This document shows positions 4,005-56,349 of a stretch of 60,678 bases of DNA, piece by piece (the first letter of the stretch is position 1; every line of letters starts with the position of its first letter). This DNA comes from a virus. The stretch lies in IMG/VR virus record IMGVR_UViG_3300032304_001472, positions 1-60,678 of that record; one strand, written 5' to 3'. The position numbers were made by a program, and so were the translations under genes. Under the pieces are notes generated by a model. It worked only from the letters and a program-made list of their open reading frames with translations. It was not told where the DNA came from and ran no database searches.

Positions 4005-4562
4005 ATGAAAAAAATTAATCGTTCACAAACTAATGATATTATTTTTGATACGAATGCTAGTTATAATGATAATTTTGCTGATTGGTTAACGGAAATGTTT
4101 GACCATTGGGCTAAGAACTATACTGGATGTACATTTGAAATTAGACAAGTTGGAACTGAAGGGACACAAGTTGAGATTGAACCAAAAACAAAACAAAACA
4201 TAAATTTGAATTGTAGTGATAGTTTAAATACAGATTTAAGTAAAATTGATAAAATCACATATACAAAAAAAGCAACTGAATCTAAGACTTATTATATTGT
4301 AACTTGGAAAACTGAATCAAAGACAACCCCAAAAAAAGAAGATTCTCTATCCACAAAAAAATCTAAAGATAAAACAGAAAATGAGCCAGACAGATATGCT
4401 CAAATGTTTGGTGGTGTGGCGGCTAGTGTTGCTAATAAAATTATAGCAGGAGCTAAAGGTGATGTTGCGGACACTGATAACGAAGGACCAGAACTAAAGG
4501 AACATCAAATAAATAAAAGATTATTAGAAGAAATTGATAGAATTAGAGAATTATTAAAATAA
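4005..4562 (+). CDS. Hypothetical virion-type protein with C-terminal tag-like helix
   Basis: 185 aa with no recognised domain. The middle is rich in Thr, Lys and Glu and likely disordered. The last residues (HQINKRLLEEIDRIRELLK) closely resemble the N-terminal leader of the 479 aa protein at 34885 (KKLINEINRIHELL). This suggests that the capsid-targeting-like helix can also sit at the C terminus. That reading is an inference from similarity alone. It has its own late-type promoter element and is flanked by terminators, so it is a single-gene unit. Confidence 0.6.
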   Translation: MKKINRSQTNDIIFDTNASYNDNFADWLTEMFDHWAKNYTGCTFEIRQVGTEGTQVEIEPKTKQNINLNCSDSLNTDLSKIDKITYTKKATESKTYYIVTWKTESKTTPKKEDSLSTKKSKDKTENEPDRYAQMFGGVAASVANKIIAGAKGDVADTDNEGPELKEHQINKRLLEEIDRIRELLK

Positions 4563-21573: not shown

Positions 21574-23379
21574 ATGGAAAATAACGAAAAAAATATGACA
21601 GTATGGCAGAGGTTATCACAAGCCTTTGGCCCAAACGCCCTCTTAAATCAAGATTACCCAACGTATAAATTTGATAAAAAAGAACTTTTAAGGACTACAT
21701 CAAAACAAGAATACGAAAAAGAATTATTACAAGCACAACAATCTTATTATTTAGGTAATCAATGGACAAAAATTGAGAGTAATCTTTATACTCAAGCAGT
21801 GTATTATGAACCAACAAGAATAGCATCATTTTATGATTACGAATCTATGGAATTTACTCCAGAAATATCAACAGCTTTGGACATTTATGGTGAAGAGTCA
21901 ACGACAGTTGACCATAATGGTTATATGTTACAAATATATTCCGAATCAAAACGTATTAAAGGAATATTGGCTGACTTATTTAATAATAGTTTAGACATTA
22001 ATACCAATCTTCCTATGTGGACAAGAAACACTTGTAAGTATGGGGATAACTTCGTTTACTTGAAATTAGACCCAGAGAAAGGTGTTGTTGGTTGTATGCA
22101 ATTACCAAATATTGAAATTGAACGTTTTGAAAGAGGTATGACAGTTCATGGAGGTAGACAGAGTGTTGAAGAACCCGTAGACCAAAAAGGTTTGAGATTC
22201 AAATGGAAAGTTAAAGATATGGAGTTTAATTCTTGGGAAATCGCTCACTTCCGTTTATTAGGTGATGATAGAAAACTTCCTTATGGTACGTCAATGTTAG
22301 AAAAGGCTAGACGTATTTGGAAACAATTATTATTGTCTGAAGATGCAATGTTAATATATAGAACATCAAGAGCACCTGAAAGAAGGGTGTTTAAAGTATT
22401 TGTTGGTAATATGGATGATAAAGATGTTGAACCATATGTACAACGTGTTGCTAATAAGTTTAAACGTAGTCAAGTCGTTGATTCTCAAACAGGTAATGTA
22501 GATATGAGATTCAATCAAATGGCGGTTGACCAAGATTATTTTATCCCAGTAAGAGATGTTACCGCGGCAAATCCTATTGATACATTACCTGGAGGTACAA
22601 ACTTGGGTGAGATTGCCGATATTGAATATATCCAAAAGAAATTATTAACGGCTCTTCGTGTACCTAAAGCTTTCTTGGGGTTTGAAGAACCTGTAGGTTC
22701 TGGCAAGAATCTTTCATTGATTGACATAAGATTTGCCAGAACAATAAATAGAATTCAGAAATCTATGATTGCAGAATTAAATAAAATCGCAATTATACAT
22801 TTATTCTTATTAGGTTTTGAAGACGAATTAAATAATTTTACATTAGGATTAACAAATCCATCAAGTCAAGCTGATTTACTTAAAATTGATGTTTGGAAAG
22901 AAAAATTTTCAGTTTATACACAAGCAACAACAGCTGACCAAATTGGTTTTATGCCAACCTCAATTAGTTGGGCTAAAAAACATATCTTAGGATTCTCTGA
23001 TGAAGAAATAAGGATTGATTTACAACAACAACGTATTGAACGTGCAGTTGGTGCTGAATTAACTAATACCGCAACAATTATAACTAAAACAGGTGTATTT
23101 GATAATATAGATAAATTATATGATACTATAACTGGTGAGACTCAAGGTGGAGCTCCACCACCTCCTCCTGGTGGAGGAGAAGGGGGAATGCCACCACCAC
23201 CACCTCCTCCTGGAGGGGAAGGTCCTGAATTGGCTCCAGAATCATTCAAAAAGGATAACTTGAATATTTTATTAGAAAATGAATCATTGATTGACACTGA
23301 CCAATTTATTGATTTATCTAGAGCAAGAAATTATTTGGGTGAAATGGAAAATCAACTAAAAAAACTTCTTAATGATTGA
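21574..23379 (+). CDS. 20: Portal protein, T4 gp20-like
   Basis: 601 aa. It forms the dodecameric ring at the capsid vertex through which DNA enters. T4-type portal features are visible: EYENEL-like N-terminal helices (NQDYPTYKF), PEISTALDIYGEESTTVD, NTCKYGDNFVYLKL, EIAHFRLLGDDRKLPYGTS, RRIWKQLLLSEDAMLIYR, SRAPERRVFKVFVGN and ALRVPKAFLGFEEPVGSGK. The C terminus is extended by Pro/Gly-rich blocks (near residues 527-550) and ends in a helix QLKKLLND. Its position between terminase and protease is as in T4. The Pro/Gly extension is longer than expected and may be disordered inside the head. Confidence 0.93.
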   Translation: MENNEKNMTVWQRLSQAFGPNALLNQDYPTYKFDKKELLRTTSKQEYEKELLQAQQSYYLGNQWTKIESNLYTQAVYYEPTRIASFYDYESMEFTPEISTALDIYGEESTTVDHNGYMLQIYSESKRIKGILADLFNNSLDINTNLPMWTRNTCKYGDNFVYLKLDPEKGVVGCMQLPNIEIERFERGMTVHGGRQSVEEPVDQKGLRFKWKVKDMEFNSWEIAHFRLLGDDRKLPYGTSMLEKARRIWKQLLLSEDAMLIYRTSRAPERRVFKVFVGNMDDKDVEPYVQRVANKFKRSQVVDSQTGNVDMRFNQMAVDQDYFIPVRDVTAANPIDTLPGGTNLGEIADIEYIQKKLLTALRVPKAFLGFEEPVGSGKNLSLIDIRFARTINRIQKSMIAELNKIAIIHLFLLGFEDELNNFTLGLTNPSSQADLLKIDVWKEKFSVYTQATTADQIGFMPTSISWAKKHILGFSDEEIRIDLQQQRIERAVGAELTNTATIITKTGVFDNIDKLYDTITGETQGGAPPPPPGGGEGGMPPPPPPPGGEGPELAPESFKKDNLNILLENESLIDTDQFIDLSRARNYLGEMENQLKKLLND

Positions 23380-30250: not shown

Positions 30251-31957
30251 ATGTCATTAACATTATCACAAATACAAAATATAATTCAGTTATACATAAA
30301 TGAGGGTCACTCAACCCACAAACTAGCTGAACAATTTAAGGTAGGACATAAGAAGATTAGTCAAATCCTTAAGGACAATAATGTTGAAATTAAAAAGAGG
30401 GGTGGACAAATTAAGATTGGTAATAGTAGTGAATTAGAAAAATCCAAGATAAATAAATACATTTCTGAGGATAAGGAACTTACTGCTAAGTGTAAACAAA
30501 CAAATATCATAATTAATGACCCCAACAATTTATCAGGAAAACTAACAAGACATATAATTGATTTATATGGGGATATTAATATTCCAACAAACACATATCA
30601 AAGAAAGAAATATGAACAAATCAATGGTAAAAAATGGTTTGAGGCATATTTTGATATAATAGAAATTGATAAAGATATAAAAAGAAAATGTGGGTTATGT
30701 GAATGGGAAACAACTGATATTAATAACAAATCTGGTTGTTTTACAAATCATATACAAGATGTACATAATATATCTCTTGATGACTATTTGATTCAATTCC
30801 CTAATGATATACAATATCACCAAAATTACATTAAAAAGACAGATAGAGATAAAGAATTATTATTACAAGAAAATTTCGTTATATGTCAATTGTGTAATGA
30901 AAAAATGAAATCTATTACTAATTCACATTTATTGAATAAACACAATATCACTGTTGAGGAGTACAAACTTAAATTTCCAAATTCAAAAATTGTATCAGAA
31001 TCAACATCAAATGTTTTAAGTGAACTTATTAAAGAAACAAATATAAATTTTCAACCAACTTGGACATCAAAAGGTGAAACTGAAATTAAAGAGTTTATTG
31101 AAGGTTTGGGATTTGAAATTTATAAGGGGAAAAATAGAAAATTATTGGAGGGTAAGGAAATTGATTTGATTATACCAAAACTTAAAATAGCTATTGAATA
31201 TAATGGATTATATTTTCATACTGAAGAAATGGGTAAAAATTCAATATACCATTTGAATAAAACATTGGCTTGTAATCAATTGGGGTTTAAACTAATTCAC
31301 GTTTTTGAAGATGAGTGGATGACAAATAGAGAATTGGTTAAATCAAAACTAAAACATATTCTTGGCGTTAGTGATGGAATTAAAGTTGGCGCAAGAAAAA
31401 CAATTATTAAAGAAATCATTAAAGAAGATAAGTCATATTTTTTAGATGAGTTTCATATTCAAGGAAATGATAAATCAGATATTTTTTATGGTGCTTATTA
31501 TGATAATATTTTGGTTGGGGTTATGACATTCAATAGTCAAAGAAATATGACAAAAAATAATGATGGGGAATATGAATTAAGTAGATTTTCAACAAGACAA
31601 GGATACGTTATAAGTGGATTGGGTTCTAAAATGATGAAACAATTTATAACTGATTATTCTCCTAAAAGTATAATAAGTTTTGCTGATAGAAGATGGACTA
31701 CAGATGGGAACAATAATATGTATATAAGTTTGGGATTTGAACTTGTATCAATATTAAAACCTACTTATTTCTATTATAGTTCAAAGATTAATCGATATAA
31801 GAGGTATCATAAGTTTTCTTTTGGTAAAAACAATTTAAAAAAGAAATATACTAATTTGGATTTTAATAAAAGTGAATCTGAGTTAACCAAAGAATTGGGA
31901 TTTTCCAAAATATGGGATTGTGGTTTGTTTAAATATAAGATTAATTTTTTTGTATGA
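30251..31957 (+). CDS. Large Vsr-like homing endonuclease
   Basis: 568 aa. Domain order: helix-turn-helix at about 5-45 (STHKLAEQFKVGHKKISQIL); two zinc-finger-like modules with CGLCEW...H..DVH and CQLCNEKMKSI...HLLNKH (MucR-like, followed by TVEEYKLKFPNSK); a Vsr-like nuclease (KEIDLIIPKLKIAIEYNGLY, then FHTEE and FKLIHVFEDEW); and a C-terminal domain (FYGAYYDNILVGVMTF, ELSRFSTRQGYVISGLG) also seen in other phage homing enzymes. It is free-standing and follows the HNH gene, so the two form a mobile island between capsid and internal-protein genes. Confidence 0.82.
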   Translation: MSLTLSQIQNIIQLYINEGHSTHKLAEQFKVGHKKISQILKDNNVEIKKRGGQIKIGNSSELEKSKINKYISEDKELTAKCKQTNIIINDPNNLSGKLTRHIIDLYGDINIPTNTYQRKKYEQINGKKWFEAYFDIIEIDKDIKRKCGLCEWETTDINNKSGCFTNHIQDVHNISLDDYLIQFPNDIQYHQNYIKKTDRDKELLLQENFVICQLCNEKMKSITNSHLLNKHNITVEEYKLKFPNSKIVSESTSNVLSELIKETNINFQPTWTSKGETEIKEFIEGLGFEIYKGKNRKLLEGKEIDLIIPKLKIAIEYNGLYFHTEEMGKNSIYHLNKTLACNQLGFKLIHVFEDEWMTNRELVKSKLKHILGVSDGIKVGARKTIIKEIIKEDKSYFLDEFHIQGNDKSDIFYGAYYDNILVGVMTFNSQRNMTKNNDGEYELSRFSTRQGYVISGLGSKMMKQFITDYSPKSIISFADRRWTTDGNNNMYISLGFELVSILKPTYFYYSSKINRYKRYHKFSFGKNNLKKKYTNLDFNKSESELTKELGFSKIWDCGLFKYKINFFV

Positions 31958-50976: not shown

Positions 50977-52488
50977 TTATAACATTTTAAATTTAGGACT
51001 AAGTTTATTTAAATTTTTAATTACAAAAGGTAATAAATTATGTTTATAATCTTTTTGTAATTTATCTAATTTTTCAGAATCTTCATTTCTTGTCTGACTT
51101 TCATAATGATAAGCAACACAATCGGAACATAAATAGTTTTCCAATCCCAACGTAACACATTTAAAATTTAATTCAACATCCTCAAAACAAGAGATATAAT
51201 TCTCATTAAACATACCACACTTATCAAATGTAAATTTACGTATCATAACCAAAGCCCCAGTATTGCCAACAACTGAAATTGTTTTATCTGAGAAATTATA
51301 ATATGAACTTAAATTTTTGTGTGTAATACCAAATACATTATTTACTTTATTGATAATGCCAAGCATCCCATCATGTTGAATTGTATTATCCCCAAAATGT
51401 AGTCTAGCACCAACAGTCCCAACTCTTGGTTGAGTTTTGAATACAGACAACATTCCACTTATAACATCATTTAATAATTTGACATCATTATTACAAAACA
51501 ATAAAAATTCATACTCTTTCCCAATATGATTCTTGACAACATCATTATTTATCTTTGCAAAATTATAATAATCATATTTGATTAATTTAATATTCCCAAC
51601 ACTATTAACCAACTCTTCAATTGATTTTATTTCTTCCTCAGTTGACCCAGTGTCAGCAATAAAAATATCAAATAAATTCTTATCACAATGTTCATAGAAT
51701 GATTCAATACATTGGAATAATAAATCAAGTTTTCCTTTTGTAGGAATAATTACAGCAACCTTACCATTAATTTTAACATTATTAAATTTAACATTTGGAA
51801 CATAAACCTCACTTGGTTTTAAATCCAATGGTAATTTATCACCATATTTTTCAACAAACTTTATTTTACTATCAAAGAATTCCTGATTAGGTTGTCCAAC
51901 AGATTCGTGAGTTATTTCAAATGAAGATGTTACACCAATTTTAACACCATCCAAATAATTTGGAACACAAAATCCGTGGTCATAAAAATGGAACTTACCA
52001 ATCGTCTTATCAAATTTATGTTTAATTTTTGTCTTGTCAAAAGATATAAATAATCCATCAATAGTAACAACAGGAATTATAAATGGAAGCTTTGGTGAAT
52101 AGTTATTAATCCACTTCTTTTGACCACTAGGATGATGCCAAACTTGTCCAACCATAGTTTGATTCATCCTCTCCCAATAAATTCCTGATTTGGGAAAATA
52201 ACAAGAACCAGCCTTCCCAATTACCCCAAATTCGGGGTAATTGGAATAGTCCTCCAATAATTTTTTACCCCAATCTTTTTCAAGTTTAATATCGTTATGA
52301 CAACAAACAACGATGTCATATATTGATTCCGTTATTCCACTATTGTAAACTTCGGCCAAAGAATATTGATTATTGTTTTGATATTCCAATATCTGAACGT
52401 CATTAAGACCCACACTAGTTTGAAGGTGGGTCTTAAATTTTTCGTTATATTCTTTATCTTTATGCGTTGAATAAATTATTGTTATCAT
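50977..52488 (-). CDS. Two-domain glycosyltransferase
   Basis: 503 aa. The N-terminal domain (ITIIYSTHKDKEYNEKFKTH, YDIVVCCHNDIKLEKDWGKK) and the C-terminal GT2 domain (KVAVIIPTKGKLDLLFQCIE, DIFIADTGSTEEEIKSIEEL, EFLLFCNNDVKLLND, GNTGALVMIRKFTFDKCGMF, FEDVELNFK) are both GT-A-like. The C-terminal domain resembles rhamnosyltransferase-type enzymes. A fusion of two transferases could add two successive sugars. It overlaps the dUTPase C fragment by 4 bases. Confidence 0.78.
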   Translation of the reverse strand: MITIIYSTHKDKEYNEKFKTHLQTSVGLNDVQILEYQNNNQYSLAEVYNSGITESIYDIVVCCHNDIKLEKDWGKKLLEDYSNYPEFGVIGKAGSCYFPKSGIYWERMNQTMVGQVWHHPSGQKKWINNYSPKLPFIIPVVTIDGLFISFDKTKIKHKFDKTIGKFHFYDHGFCVPNYLDGVKIGVTSSFEITHESVGQPNQEFFDSKIKFVEKYGDKLPLDLKPSEVYVPNVKFNNVKINGKVAVIIPTKGKLDLLFQCIESFYEHCDKNLFDIFIADTGSTEEEIKSIEELVNSVGNIKLIKYDYYNFAKINNDVVKNHIGKEYEFLLFCNNDVKLLNDVISGMLSVFKTQPRVGTVGARLHFGDNTIQHDGMLGIINKVNNVFGITHKNLSSYYNFSDKTISVVGNTGALVMIRKFTFDKCGMFNENYISCFEDVELNFKCVTLGLENYLCSDCVAYHYESQTRNEDSEKLDKLQKDYKHNLLPFVIKNLNKLSPKFKML

Positions 52489-52787
52489 ATTCCAGTCGAG
52501 CCAAAACCTTTATCCGCTCTATCAGTTTTATTTATGTCTTTTTTCTTAACTAAATTAACCCATTTCCCATTAACTACGGAAGTTAATACAGCCTGGGCAA
52601 TCTTCATTCCTTTATTAACCACAAATTCGTGATTGTTAACATTGAAAAGAATAACCTTCACTTCACCAGTATAACTACAATTGTGAATTAAATGTCCATT
52701 ACAAAAAAAATTATGATTATTCTTAATTGTAATATCAAATGTTTGTTTTTTTTCTGTCGTAATTTTTTTAATCTTCGTTGTTTTCAT
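52485..52787 (-). CDS. dut: dUTPase, C-terminal fragment with C-intein
   Basis: 100 aa. Residues 1-36 are a C-intein: QTFDITIKNNHNFFCNGHLI, HN, then Cys37. The extein CSYTGEVKVILFNVNN continues dUTPase motif 3 and includes motif 4 (KGMKIAQAVL) and motif 5 (RADKGFGSTG). Together with the N fragment at 53695 all five dUTPase motifs are present; the spliced protein would be about 199 aa. It would hydrolyse dUTP to dUMP and keep uracil out of phage DNA. The ATG lies inside the end of the endonuclease gene. Confidence 0.88.
   Translation of the reverse strand: MKTTKIKKITTEKKQTFDITIKNNHNFFCNGHLIHNCSYTGEVKVILFNVNNHEFVVNKGMKIAQAVLTSVVNGKWVNLVKKKDINKTDRADKGFGSTGI
52680..52787 (-). other. C-intein (36 aa) of dUTPase
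   Basis: Blocks F and G only, ending LIHN before Cys. This is the length of a canonical split-intein C half. Confidence 0.85.
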
Positions 52788-53661
52788 AAATAAATTTTTT
52801 TAAATCCTCTACTGAATAGAATAATTTGTAATTTGGATATTCCTTTAATGTAAATTGTTGTTTTATTAAAACTTCTTCTGTTTCCCAACCTTTCATCTCA
52901 ATTATGAATATTTTATTATTAGTTAGCTCAACATAAAAATCTGGAACATAATTTCTATTTAATCCATTAAAGTAATATTTTATTCTTATCCTATGTTTAT
53001 TTGTCCATTTTTTTATAAAAGGAATTGAGTCAAAAAAAATCATACTTTGAAGTTCATATGACGATGAATAAAAGAAGGTTTCATTATTTTTTGAGACGTA
53101 TGTACCAGTTTTATATTTATTAGAATTATTAGTTATTTTACCTAAGCTGTATAATTCTGAAATAATTTTTGACATTTTTTCTCTGAATTCTAATTTTTTA
53201 TTACACCTACCATCATTTAATATTGTTTTAATAGATTTAATTGTTTTTTTTCTATATTCTTCATTTTCCCACCTTTCTTTTGATGTTTTTGAAATTTTTT
53301 TTATTCTATCTTCAGATTTAACCCAATCTTTAAATTTTTCACTTTTACTCCAATTTGTAAATCCAGAATATACTTCAGGTATTTCAATATGTCTCTTTTT
53401 TAAAATATTAGACATTTTTTCTTTGAACTCAGGTTTATTATGAGTTATTTGTCTGGATTCTGACATTTTTTGTTTATATTCTTTGTCACTCCATTTTATT
53501 TTTTGTTGTTCTGAATTCATTTTTGAGTATTCATTTGATTTAACTCTTGCGTTAGGATATAGTTCTTTATATTGTTTTGAACTTAACTTATGTTCAAATT
53601 TTAAATGTTCAACAATTGAATATTGTTTTTCAAAATTACATATATTACATTTTACCGACAT
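52768..53661 (-). CDS. Homing endonuclease inside the split dUTPase locus
   Basis: 297 aa. The N terminus is a zinc-finger/MucR-like module (CNICNFEKQYSIVEHLKFEH, KQYKELYPNARVKS), followed by repeated NUMOD3-like segments (KEYKQKMSESRQI, EFKEKMSNILKKR, EFREKMSKIISEL) for DNA contact. The nuclease domain is PD-(D/E)xK-like: SSYELQSMIFFDS, RNYVPDFYVELTNNKIFIIE, MKG. It is free-standing, with its own late-type element upstream, and lies between the two dUTPase fragments, overlapping the C fragment by 20 bases. Confidence 0.75.
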   Translation of the reverse strand: MSVKCNICNFEKQYSIVEHLKFEHKLSSKQYKELYPNARVKSNEYSKMNSEQQKIKWSDKEYKQKMSESRQITHNKPEFKEKMSNILKKRHIEIPEVYSGFTNWSKSEKFKDWVKSEDRIKKISKTSKERWENEEYRKKTIKSIKTILNDGRCNKKLEFREKMSKIISELYSLGKITNNSNKYKTGTYVSKNNETFFYSSSYELQSMIFFDSIPFIKKWTNKHRIRIKYYFNGLNRNYVPDFYVELTNNKIFIIEMKGWETEEVLIKQQFTLKEYPNYKLFYSVEDLKKFIYENNED

Positions 53662-53678
53662 ACTTAATATCTTTATTG

Positions 53679-53686
53679 ATAAATAG
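53679..53686 (-). promoter_or_regulatory. Late-type promoter element, variant CTATTTAT
   Basis: CTATTTAT on the minus strand, 17 bases before the endonuclease ATG at 53661, between the dUTPase fragments. Confidence 0.4.
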
Positions 53687-53694
53687 TACGTTGG

Positions 53695-54378
53695 TCAATA
53701 AAATACAATTATTTCATCATTTTTTTGTAAATCTTTTGCTAAAACAATACCTCGATTTGTGTAAATTTCAGTATTTGAGGTCACCTCAAGAATACCATCT
53801 TCAGTTTCTATTTTCAATATATCTTGTATGTCAGTATCAAATATTTTAACAATAGTATCTTTTTCAATCTCCAAACTTTCTTCATTTAGTGAAAAAACAA
53901 CATCATTAATTTTTAAATCTTTGATATATTTTTCACCATCAATAGTTAATATTTTCATATCTTCGGAAAAACAATCTACAGTTCCGGGTGAGTTTAACAC
54001 CATAAGGCCTTGTTTCAATACCAAACCACTCTTTGACCTAACTTGAATTTCAAAACCATCCTTTATTTCAAAAGCCAAACCAGTGGAAACTAATGCTCTT
54101 CCAAATGGGGGTAGAACAACTTCTTCAGTTGAATACAAATCAAACCCTGAATCACCATCATAATTATAAGATGGGTCAATCGCATTAGGATTTAATTTTA
54201 CAAACCCAAGGTCTAATTTAGTACTGAAATTCAACATATCCTCTTCCAATTTTTTTATGTCCAAACCATATTCTTCGTAAATTAAATTATAGTCAATTTC
54301 TTCTGAATTTTGATTCAGATATTCTTGGATTCTTTTTGATTGTTCTAACAAATCATTAATATTATTTTCTTCTAACAT
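53695..54378 (-). CDS. dut: dUTPase, N-terminal fragment with N-intein
   Basis: 227 aa. The first 50 residues are an extra helical extension. Residues about 55-135 carry dUTPase motif 1 (GDSGFDLYS), motif 2 (VRSKSGLVLKQGL) and the start of motif 3 (VLNSPGTVD). At residue 136 the intein starts: CFSEDMKILTIDGEKYIKDL, 92 residues to the stop. Block B is GILEVTSNTEIYT, where the usual TxxH His is replaced by Thr (TSNT). That residue normally helps the first splicing step, so splicing may be slow or depend on another residue. Confidence 0.88.
   Translation of the reverse strand: MLEENNINDLLEQSKRIQEYLNQNSEEIDYNLIYEEYGLDIKKLEEDMLNFSTKLDLGFVKLNPNAIDPSYNYDGDSGFDLYSTEEVVLPPFGRALVSTGLAFEIKDGFEIQVRSKSGLVLKQGLMVLNSPGTVDCFSEDMKILTIDGEKYIKDLKINDVVFSLNEESLEIEKDTIVKIFDTDIQDILKIETEDGILEVTSNTEIYTNRGIVLAKDLQKNDEIIVFY
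53698..53973 (-). other. N-intein (92 aa) of dUTPase
   Basis: Blocks A and B in the usual order and length. Block B lacks the conserved His. It pairs with the C-intein at 52680-52787. Confidence 0.82.
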
Positions 54379-55092: not shown

Positions 55093-56349
55093 TTATTTTA
55101 TTAATGATTTGTAAAAAGAAGCTCTTGTTTTTGTTACGTTTCTTAAATCATACTTGTCTTTAACACTTTCGTACAATCTTTCCCCAAGGTCGGTAATATA
55201 ATTGGGATTATAAACTAAAGTCTTAATATATTTTGCCCAATCACTATGATTTCTATTCTCGTGAACCAAAAGAGCATTACCATCTCCAAAAATACCATTT
55301 TTCATTGTGTGATTCAAATCAATTGTATAAGGACCTACCTCAGAAGCAATTAAAGCTTTTTTATAAAACCCAGCCTCAATAACTTTTAATTGTGACTTTA
55401 CCCTATTAAAAATATGATTTTTAATTGGTGCCATTGAAATATCAAACTTGGAATAATTTGTTGCGTAAGTATTAATATGTTTTGTCCAAACACGTCTATA
55501 AGGTAATGTTGTTGGATTTGGATATTCTTCATCTTTAAATTGATTTAAAAAGTTTTTATAACCTTCGTCAATAATTGAATAATTGTTTGTAAAAATTTCT
55601 TCATATCTAACCCATACGGTTTCTTCAGGTTTAATAGGCCTTTGTTTTCTTTCACCAGTAGTTTGGTTTATTTCAGTAACCGAACCTCTAGTATCAAATC
55701 CGCATAAGACATATTGAACCTTATCTTTCAAACTCATATTCTTGCCAACAAATCCCTCCAATAGTTTTAAATCGTGAAGGTGTGAAGAACCACCCAACCA
55801 TCCAACTCTAACTCTCTCAGATTCTTCTGTTGGTTGATTAAATTGTGACTCAGTAGGATTAATCGCATTAGGTAATATCACAACATTCCTATTTAATTTT
55901 CTTATCTCATCCGCAAAGATATTTGTTGTTGTTGTAACATAACTTGCGACTTTTAAATTCGCAACAATCTTTTCATGTATCTTATCTTGAACAATCAATG
56001 AATGTATTGGGTGTTCTTTTCCAGGTAACCAATAGTCATCCAAATCTACAATAACAACGATACCAAGTGATTTTAAAAAATTAATTAAGGTTGGTGTTTG
56101 TTCATAAGTGTGTCCAATATTTCTGTGGATGTGAACAATTTGATATTGTTTCCAATAATTAACATTATTAATCTGTGGTTGATAATCTATATCCACATGA
56201 AAGTCATCTGGATACATATTTTGTAACATTACATGGGGGTCTACGCTTCGGAATTTACCTCAGCCAACCCCGGTAGAATCGGAGGGCAGTACGAGTACTC
56301 GTATCTTTTCTCTGTGATCCAACCGGGGTTGATTATCATTTTGAATCAT
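55093..56349 (-). CDS. GT-B glycosyltransferase interrupted by an in-frame TGA
   Basis: The frame from ATG 56349 reads MIQNDNQPRLDHREKIRVLV, LPSDSTGVG, then TGA at 56262-56260 (codon 30), then GKFRSVDPHV and on to residue 419. KIRVLVLPSDSTGVG is a textbook GT-B N terminus, and GVG..R is the family's usual loop, so both sides belong to one protein. Without the six bases TGAGGT the text would read GVGKFRS. Restart at ATG 56229 would drop the N-terminal strand. C-terminal parts include RVRVGWLGGSSHLHDLKLLE and KVIEAGFYKKALIASEVGPY. The first 40 codons are unusually GC-rich. It may be a pseudogene, a readthrough gene or recoded by a short ribosomal hop. Confidence 0.7.
56265..56331 (-). other. 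Long hairpin just before the in-frame TGA
   Basis: A 10-bp perfect stem, CAACCCCGGT (56331-56322 on the minus strand) with ACCGGGGTTG (56274-56265), and a 47-base loop that contains the palindrome TACGAGTACTCGTA (56290-56303). The stem ends at the first base of the GGC codon before TGA. Confidence 0.75.

Follow-up and report, generated by a model that had tools for sequence, protein, structure and literature searches.

A glycosyltransferase gene of a T4-like phage is in all likelihood translated by programmed ribosomal bypassing of the T4 gene 60 kind, in which the ribosome would make a short hop over a stop codon; from the sequence comparisons given below, we put the probability of this reading at about 0.9. 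The gene lies in the window, i.e., the whole 60,678-nt stretch of the virus record IMGVR_UViG_3300032304_001472, which belongs to a T4-like phage according to its portal (phrog_213) and major head protein (phrog_138). It covers 55093..56349 on the minus strand (PHROG 7162 glycosyltransferase, E 3.6e-45), and translation of 56349-55093 reads MIQNDNQPRLDHREKIRVLVLPSDSTGVG, a stop, and GKFRSVDPHVMLQ..., confirming the GGC-TGA-GGT within an otherwise normal N terminus that the initial annotation had described. On this strand, ORF1 of 29 codons (56349-56263) ends with the putative take-off codon GGC (Gly, 56265-56263), directly 3′ of which the stop codon TGA (56262-56260) makes up the whole 3-nt coding gap. 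It is followed by the landing codon GGT (Gly, 56259-56257), whose codon match is kept in relatives, and by the resumed coding sequence until the stop at 55093. TGA is, as had been claimed, a real stop elsewhere: the portal ORF (21574-23379) ends with TGA, likewise 7/49 long ORFs, and the window phage uses the standard code. The suggestion of a minimal 6-nt hop linked to the neighboring endonuclease is now strongly supported by 46 related loci and by the failure of the simpler alternatives.

In the proposed mechanism, the ribosome would pause at the stop codon located directly after the take-off codon. When the mRNA leaves the ribosome, a hairpin 5′ of the take-off codon may refold and pull the mRNA, a motor role assigned to it by analogy with the 5′ stem-loop of T4. 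The peptidyl-tRNA would lose its codon and re-pair at the nearest downstream codon that matches, at a distance of 5-13 nt (6 nt in the window). Decoding would resume at the landing codon, with AAA (56256-56254) as the proposed point of resumption after landing in the window, to give exactly the uninterrupted protein (GVG-KFRS). The element and the homing endonuclease gene upstream would spread jointly.

Among 80 viral relatives of the glycosyltransferase, most have an uninterrupted N terminus, M(S)KIKVLVLPSDxTGVGKFRS, and several divergent ones have a stop at exactly the same N-terminal site; frame-changing versions turned up in further DNA pattern scans. A systematic table of all fetched loci, from which the L154 row was excluded as a chance match, contains 46 distinct interrupted and 57 uninterrupted glycosyltransferase genes. 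The loci of this main family are metagenomic virus contigs without a cultured host, and the evidence is comparative throughout. The stop stands directly 3′ of the take-off codon in 46/46 loci. The gaps between the matched codons are 2, 3, 4, 5, 6, 8, 9, or 10 nt long, and the commonest gap sequences are TGA (16), TAA (14), TA (3), and TG (2), accompanied by rarer ones, TGAA, TAATT, TGACA, TGACTA, TAACTAAA (3), TAAATCAA, TAACAAAAC, TAACCAACA, and TGAATTTAAA. Coding stays in frame after the gap in 33/46 loci, and the frame is changed in 13/46 (gaps of 2, 4, 5, 8, and 10 nt). Judged by the recurrence of the same arrangement in 46 distinct loci, the interruption in the window is not a random nonsense or private mutation.

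The take-off and landing codons agree in their first two bases in 45/46 loci: 40 pairs are Gly-Gly (GGY to GGN), five are Ser-Ser (AGY to AGC), and one is an exception. Thus, the codons match at the tRNA level; if a peptidyl-tRNA re-pairs, both codons are expected to change together, as they do from Gly to Ser in distant relatives. Because the take-off codon in the relatives is always GGC/GGT or AGC/AGT and so ends with C or T, a tRNA with G34 may be needed; with tRNA-Gly(GCC) carrying G34 as the hopping tRNA, landing at GGA, the landing codon in seven loci, would need relaxed third-base pairing. The sole unmatched locus, L197 (3931), has AGT for take-off and GGC for landing, and would need a G-U pair at the first codon position. 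The GGA landings and the L197 mismatch are points against bypassing, as are the absence of a recognizable long nascent-peptide signal of the T4 type and the restriction of another candidate gene, L306 (see below), to a single contig.

The predicted hopped product always equals the protein of the 57 uninterrupted relatives (pattern GV[GS][KRSYFH][FY]RS), and the earlier statement that a skip from GGC to GGT yields the normal GVGKFRS form agrees with what these relatives encode. Values of pN/pS are 0.30 in the ten codons before the gap, 0.25 in the ten codons after it, and 0.42 in the gene body, indicating that both gap-flanking segments are translated and under purifying selection. The take-off codon is codon 26-29 while the homologous position in the uninterrupted genes is codon 17-20, and the N terminus of the interrupted genes is longer by about ten codons, which form the hairpin. 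No cultured phage with the interrupted gene was found; the best phage matches have less than 33% identity, and the stop-hop motif is absent from the N termini of two of them that were checked. Neither the glycosyltransferase nor the endonuclease has a relative in the genome collection.

In the window, the take-off-proximal hairpin is made of a 5′ arm, UCAACCCCGGU (56322..56332, minus strand), and a 3′ arm, ACCGGGGUUGG (56264..56274, minus strand), the latter ending inside the take-off codon. A hairpin ending at GGC had been noticed before, and this is now confirmed, with the 3′ arm covering the first two bases of GGC. Its 11 pairs, including a terminal U-G, give -33.9 kcal/mol and a dinucleotide-shuffle z of -5.75, and equally stable structures were found in 0/200 shuffles. 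By single-sequence folding, the 5′ hairpin is formed in all of the testable distinct loci (41/41), with compensatory changes that conserve the pairing. The four bases of the GGRG core in the 3′ arm (GGCG in two loci) are all paired upstream in 41/41 distinct loci, and the base preceding the core pairs as A-U, U-A, C-G, G-C, G-U, or U-G. At the synonymous third position of the hairpin Gly codon, the pair is G-C in 34, A-U in five, and C-G in two loci; this codon is GGG in 37/45 interrupted versus 4/57 uninterrupted genes. Mean z in synonymous-codon shuffles is -5.75 for 31 interrupted loci versus +0.22 for 40 uninterrupted relatives. When the whole MAFFT alignment was folded by RNAalifold, no consensus structure emerged, since subgroups are shifted by one base against each other, and the hairpin was assessed instead by single-sequence folding and in two in-register subgroups. 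In these, where the structures were drawn from the same sequences, 91 and 94% of the cells are paired, and pairing and covariation are higher than in every slid version and in all, or nearly all, of the shuffles.

Furthermore, GGGGUU (56271-56266) has a possible alternative partner, GACCCC (56236..56241, minus strand), with which it could form a take-off-type stem-loop enclosing the stop and landing codons. For this alternative stem, z averages -1.8 across all loci; with 3-nt gaps it is mostly about -3, and with longer gaps near 0, so that the T4 take-off stem-loop, which holds the take-off and stop codons, would have a counterpart in only part of this family. The arrangement is reminiscent of T4 gene 60 with its pair of competing stem-loops (PMC5009743, PMC11194080).

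The ORF directly upstream (57241-56336, minus strand) overlaps the glycosyltransferase start by 14 nt and encodes a free-standing homing endonuclease (NUMOD3; PHROG 3339 and 559), as the initial annotation had stated; from its conserved C terminus (IIEYFGDYWHCNP...), we take it to be of the EDxHD/Vsr-like type. Among bypass loci that were found without the endonuclease as bait and have enough upstream sequence, 27/30 carry an upstream endonuclease of the same family, intact or decayed. The uninterrupted relatives mostly have an ordinary gene end there instead. On the glycosyltransferase tree, the bypass trait needs 24 changes in the best tree and at least 14 on well-supported branches. In 14 independent pairs, which include loci fetched with the endonuclease as bait and so favor co-occurrence, the endonuclease changes in the same way in 6-8 and in the opposite way in 0-1. 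Three changes of the trait are required on the endonuclease tree. At least 14 changes on the one tree versus three on the other indicate that the element and the endonuclease move together; by this co-inheritance, the supposed link of the element to the adjacent endonuclease is established, and the two form a mobile cassette, as with T4 gene 60 and mobA.

In L001, the relative closest to the window, the stop is missing, the downstream protein is 99% identical, and an exact 31-bp remnant of the endonuclease 3′ end is kept. There are elements outlasting endonuclease loss (L056, L108, and L111) and endonucleases without the element (L207, L257, L261, and others). Probably, the insertion keeps the cassette's own endonuclease from cutting the gene, and the hop would preserve gene function; this self-protection is the likely reason for the association, as suggested for T4 (PMC5009743). 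A clade of mostly shorter endonucleases located at the same place has no bypass element (L207, L214, L218, L225, L230, L255, L259, L260, and L261), and must therefore avoid self-cutting in another way.

Elsewhere in the window, a second homing endonuclease of 568 aa (PHROG 3339) is encoded between structural genes at 30251-31957 on the plus strand. Also, the dUTPase gene (52485-54378, minus strand) is split inside its coding sequence into an N half with a HINT (intein N) domain at 54378-53695, a separate 297-aa ORF at 53661-52768, and an intein C end with the dUTPase C half at 52787-52485. This has the look of a split or fractured intein whose parts are separated by a free-standing ORF; L001 is without the dUTPase insertion.

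Readthrough by a near-cognate tRNA at TGA or TAA, the element that the initial annotation had offered as an alternative to the hop, would produce GVG-X-GKFRS, two residues longer, and would suit the 33 in-frame loci including the window. It fails because the gaps of 13/46 loci (2, 4, 5, 8, and 10 nt) would leave the rest of the gene out of frame. Moreover, the TRR-pattern scans, which permitted the Trp codon TGG at the stop position, matched only TGA and TAA, so that a sense Trp codon is found at the interruption in no locus, and readthrough would leave the matched take-off and landing codons and their joint change to Ser-Ser unexplained. We regard it as very unlikely. Equally improbable is a plain nonsense allele or a phase-variable OFF state, in which the gene is broken, or is reactivated by a 6-nt DNA deletion between short direct repeats. 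Nearly identical uninterrupted alleles do exist, L001 being 99% identical to the window protein, but L001 differs by its whole 5′ region with the 31-bp endonuclease scar, and the presumed repeats match at the tRNA level (GGC/GGA, AGT/AGC) rather than being identical. The nonsense mutation, once the simpler alternative, fails because the stop, the matched codons, and an elaborate, covarying hairpin are kept across divergent lineages and because both sides of the gap are under purifying selection, more constrained than the gene body.

Two separate proteins, namely a short peptide terminated by the stop and a truncated glycosyltransferase initiated anew farther downstream, are even harder to reconcile with the family. 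The candidate restart site in the window, ATG at 56227..56229 on the minus strand, has an in-frame equivalent nine codons after the landing codon in 20/46 loci; however, 26/46 have no Met at that place, many have none within 50-80 codons, and the codons between the gap and the ATG are under strong purifying selection (pN/pS 0.25). Because the ATG is thus missing in more than half of the interrupted relatives, the restart at 56229 that had been considered was given up. The least credible explanation is removal of the gap at the RNA level, by splicing or editing with the hairpin as a recognition element. It would account for the same protein whatever the gap length, but requires neither in-frame flanking codons nor a stop directly after the first of them, the latter being present in 46/46 loci, and we know of no system that excises 5-13 nt beside a hairpin in bacterial mRNA.

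The architecture expected for bypassing is also found in other genes. A generic scan covering 2.48 Mb of sequence returned mostly chance matches in GC-rich contigs, plus L217/L219 and L306. L217 and L219, both on the minus strand, carry a more distant glycosyltransferase paralogue with GGT-TGAATAAA-GGT, where the gap measures 8 nt and a stem of 11 bp ends at take-off; in the reverse complement of L217, the stop occupies 4082-4084. L306 contains a glycosyltransferase gene of another kind, which reads (4044-4049) ...SDDLR-[TAA]-(CGA) LTSGIATVSR with CGA as both take-off and landing codons. A long stem ends right before take-off (z -4.8; as stable in 0/1000 synonymous shuffles). Its uninterrupted relatives read SDDLR(L/M)..SGIAT, and the interruption is found in L306 only; seen in one contig, it is provisionally taken as a candidate second bypass gene. 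An intein that has its own endonuclease appears to lie in the neighboring IMP dehydrogenase gene of L306. The glycosyltransferase of Microcystis phage Mel-JY01 (L400, 1459-2950), annotated as two genes, is not a bypass case but an ordinary split, since the break is in mid-gene and no matched codons or hairpin were noticed.

On balance, we lean to the wider view that a compact module, consisting of a hairpin, a codon, a stop, 2-10 nt, and the same codon, suffices for Gly, Ser, and Arg hops, that it arose or inserted in more than one phage gene and was spread by endonucleases which it shields from self-cutting, and that stop-hopping is common in T4-like phages, where it would be misread as broken genes. 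Since gene callers would place the start of such genes too late or treat them as broken, others like them have probably been overlooked. To our knowledge, T4 gene 60 has essentially been the only proven case of bypassing in bacteria and their phages. To this known type, the present loci would add natural short stop-hops that are widespread, with variable gaps and Ser-Ser versions. With dozens of natural variants in gap lengths, take-off codons, and hairpins, the family would be a ready-made mutational series for the mechanism, and would provide, after T4, another and widespread case in which a homing endonuclease is coupled to ribosome bypass. Short stop-hops in nature had been foreseen without being found. 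A review in 2010 hoped for bypass cases in other T4-related phages (PMC3014915), and according to another from 2016, in-frame stop hops were not known to occur naturally (PMC5009743). In the open-licence literature, we found no description of stop-hops in natural genes.

Several known systems share parts of this architecture. Another gene with a proposed short bypass is likewise of phage origin, but this bypass depends on a UUA codon in Streptomyces and has no homing endonuclease family behind it. The byps of Magnusiomyces capitatus mitochondria are also short non-coding inserts, spread in coding genes, that are skipped by ribosomes, whereas they are mitochondrial and independent of mRNA context, and their codons are not always matched (PMC5009743). 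Synthetic stop hops in Escherichia coli (Weiss et al., 1987, as cited in PMC5009743) take place between matched codons flanking a stop, as proposed here, with 9 nt decoded as one amino acid (+6), and also as +5. Those are reporter constructs, while a conserved hairpin and other gap lengths are found here.

The fullest likeness is to T4 gene 60. There, a stop codon occupies the A site at take-off, and the mRNA is believed to be pulled by the refolding 5′ stem-loop (PMC5009743); roughly half of the ribosomes arrive at the landing site (PMC11194080). Common to both are matched Gly take-off and landing codons, the stop directly after take-off, the 5′ stem-loop, a T4-like phage, an adjacent homing endonuclease (mobA in T4), and a product identical to that of uninterrupted relatives. 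A T4-type nascent-peptide signal about 30 residues before take-off has no counterpart here, and none would fit upstream of a take-off at codon 26-29; the first ORF is short and without a recognized peptide signal of the KKYK type, unlike in gene 60. The host gene encodes a glycosyltransferase instead of a topoisomerase, and the endonuclease is of the EDxHD/Vsr type instead of HNH. The gap is 2-10 nt versus 47-50 in gene 60, and the hairpin ends right at the take-off codon, unlike in T4. Finally, Ser and Arg versions exist here besides Gly, and the family is widespread whereas T4 gene 60 is unique.
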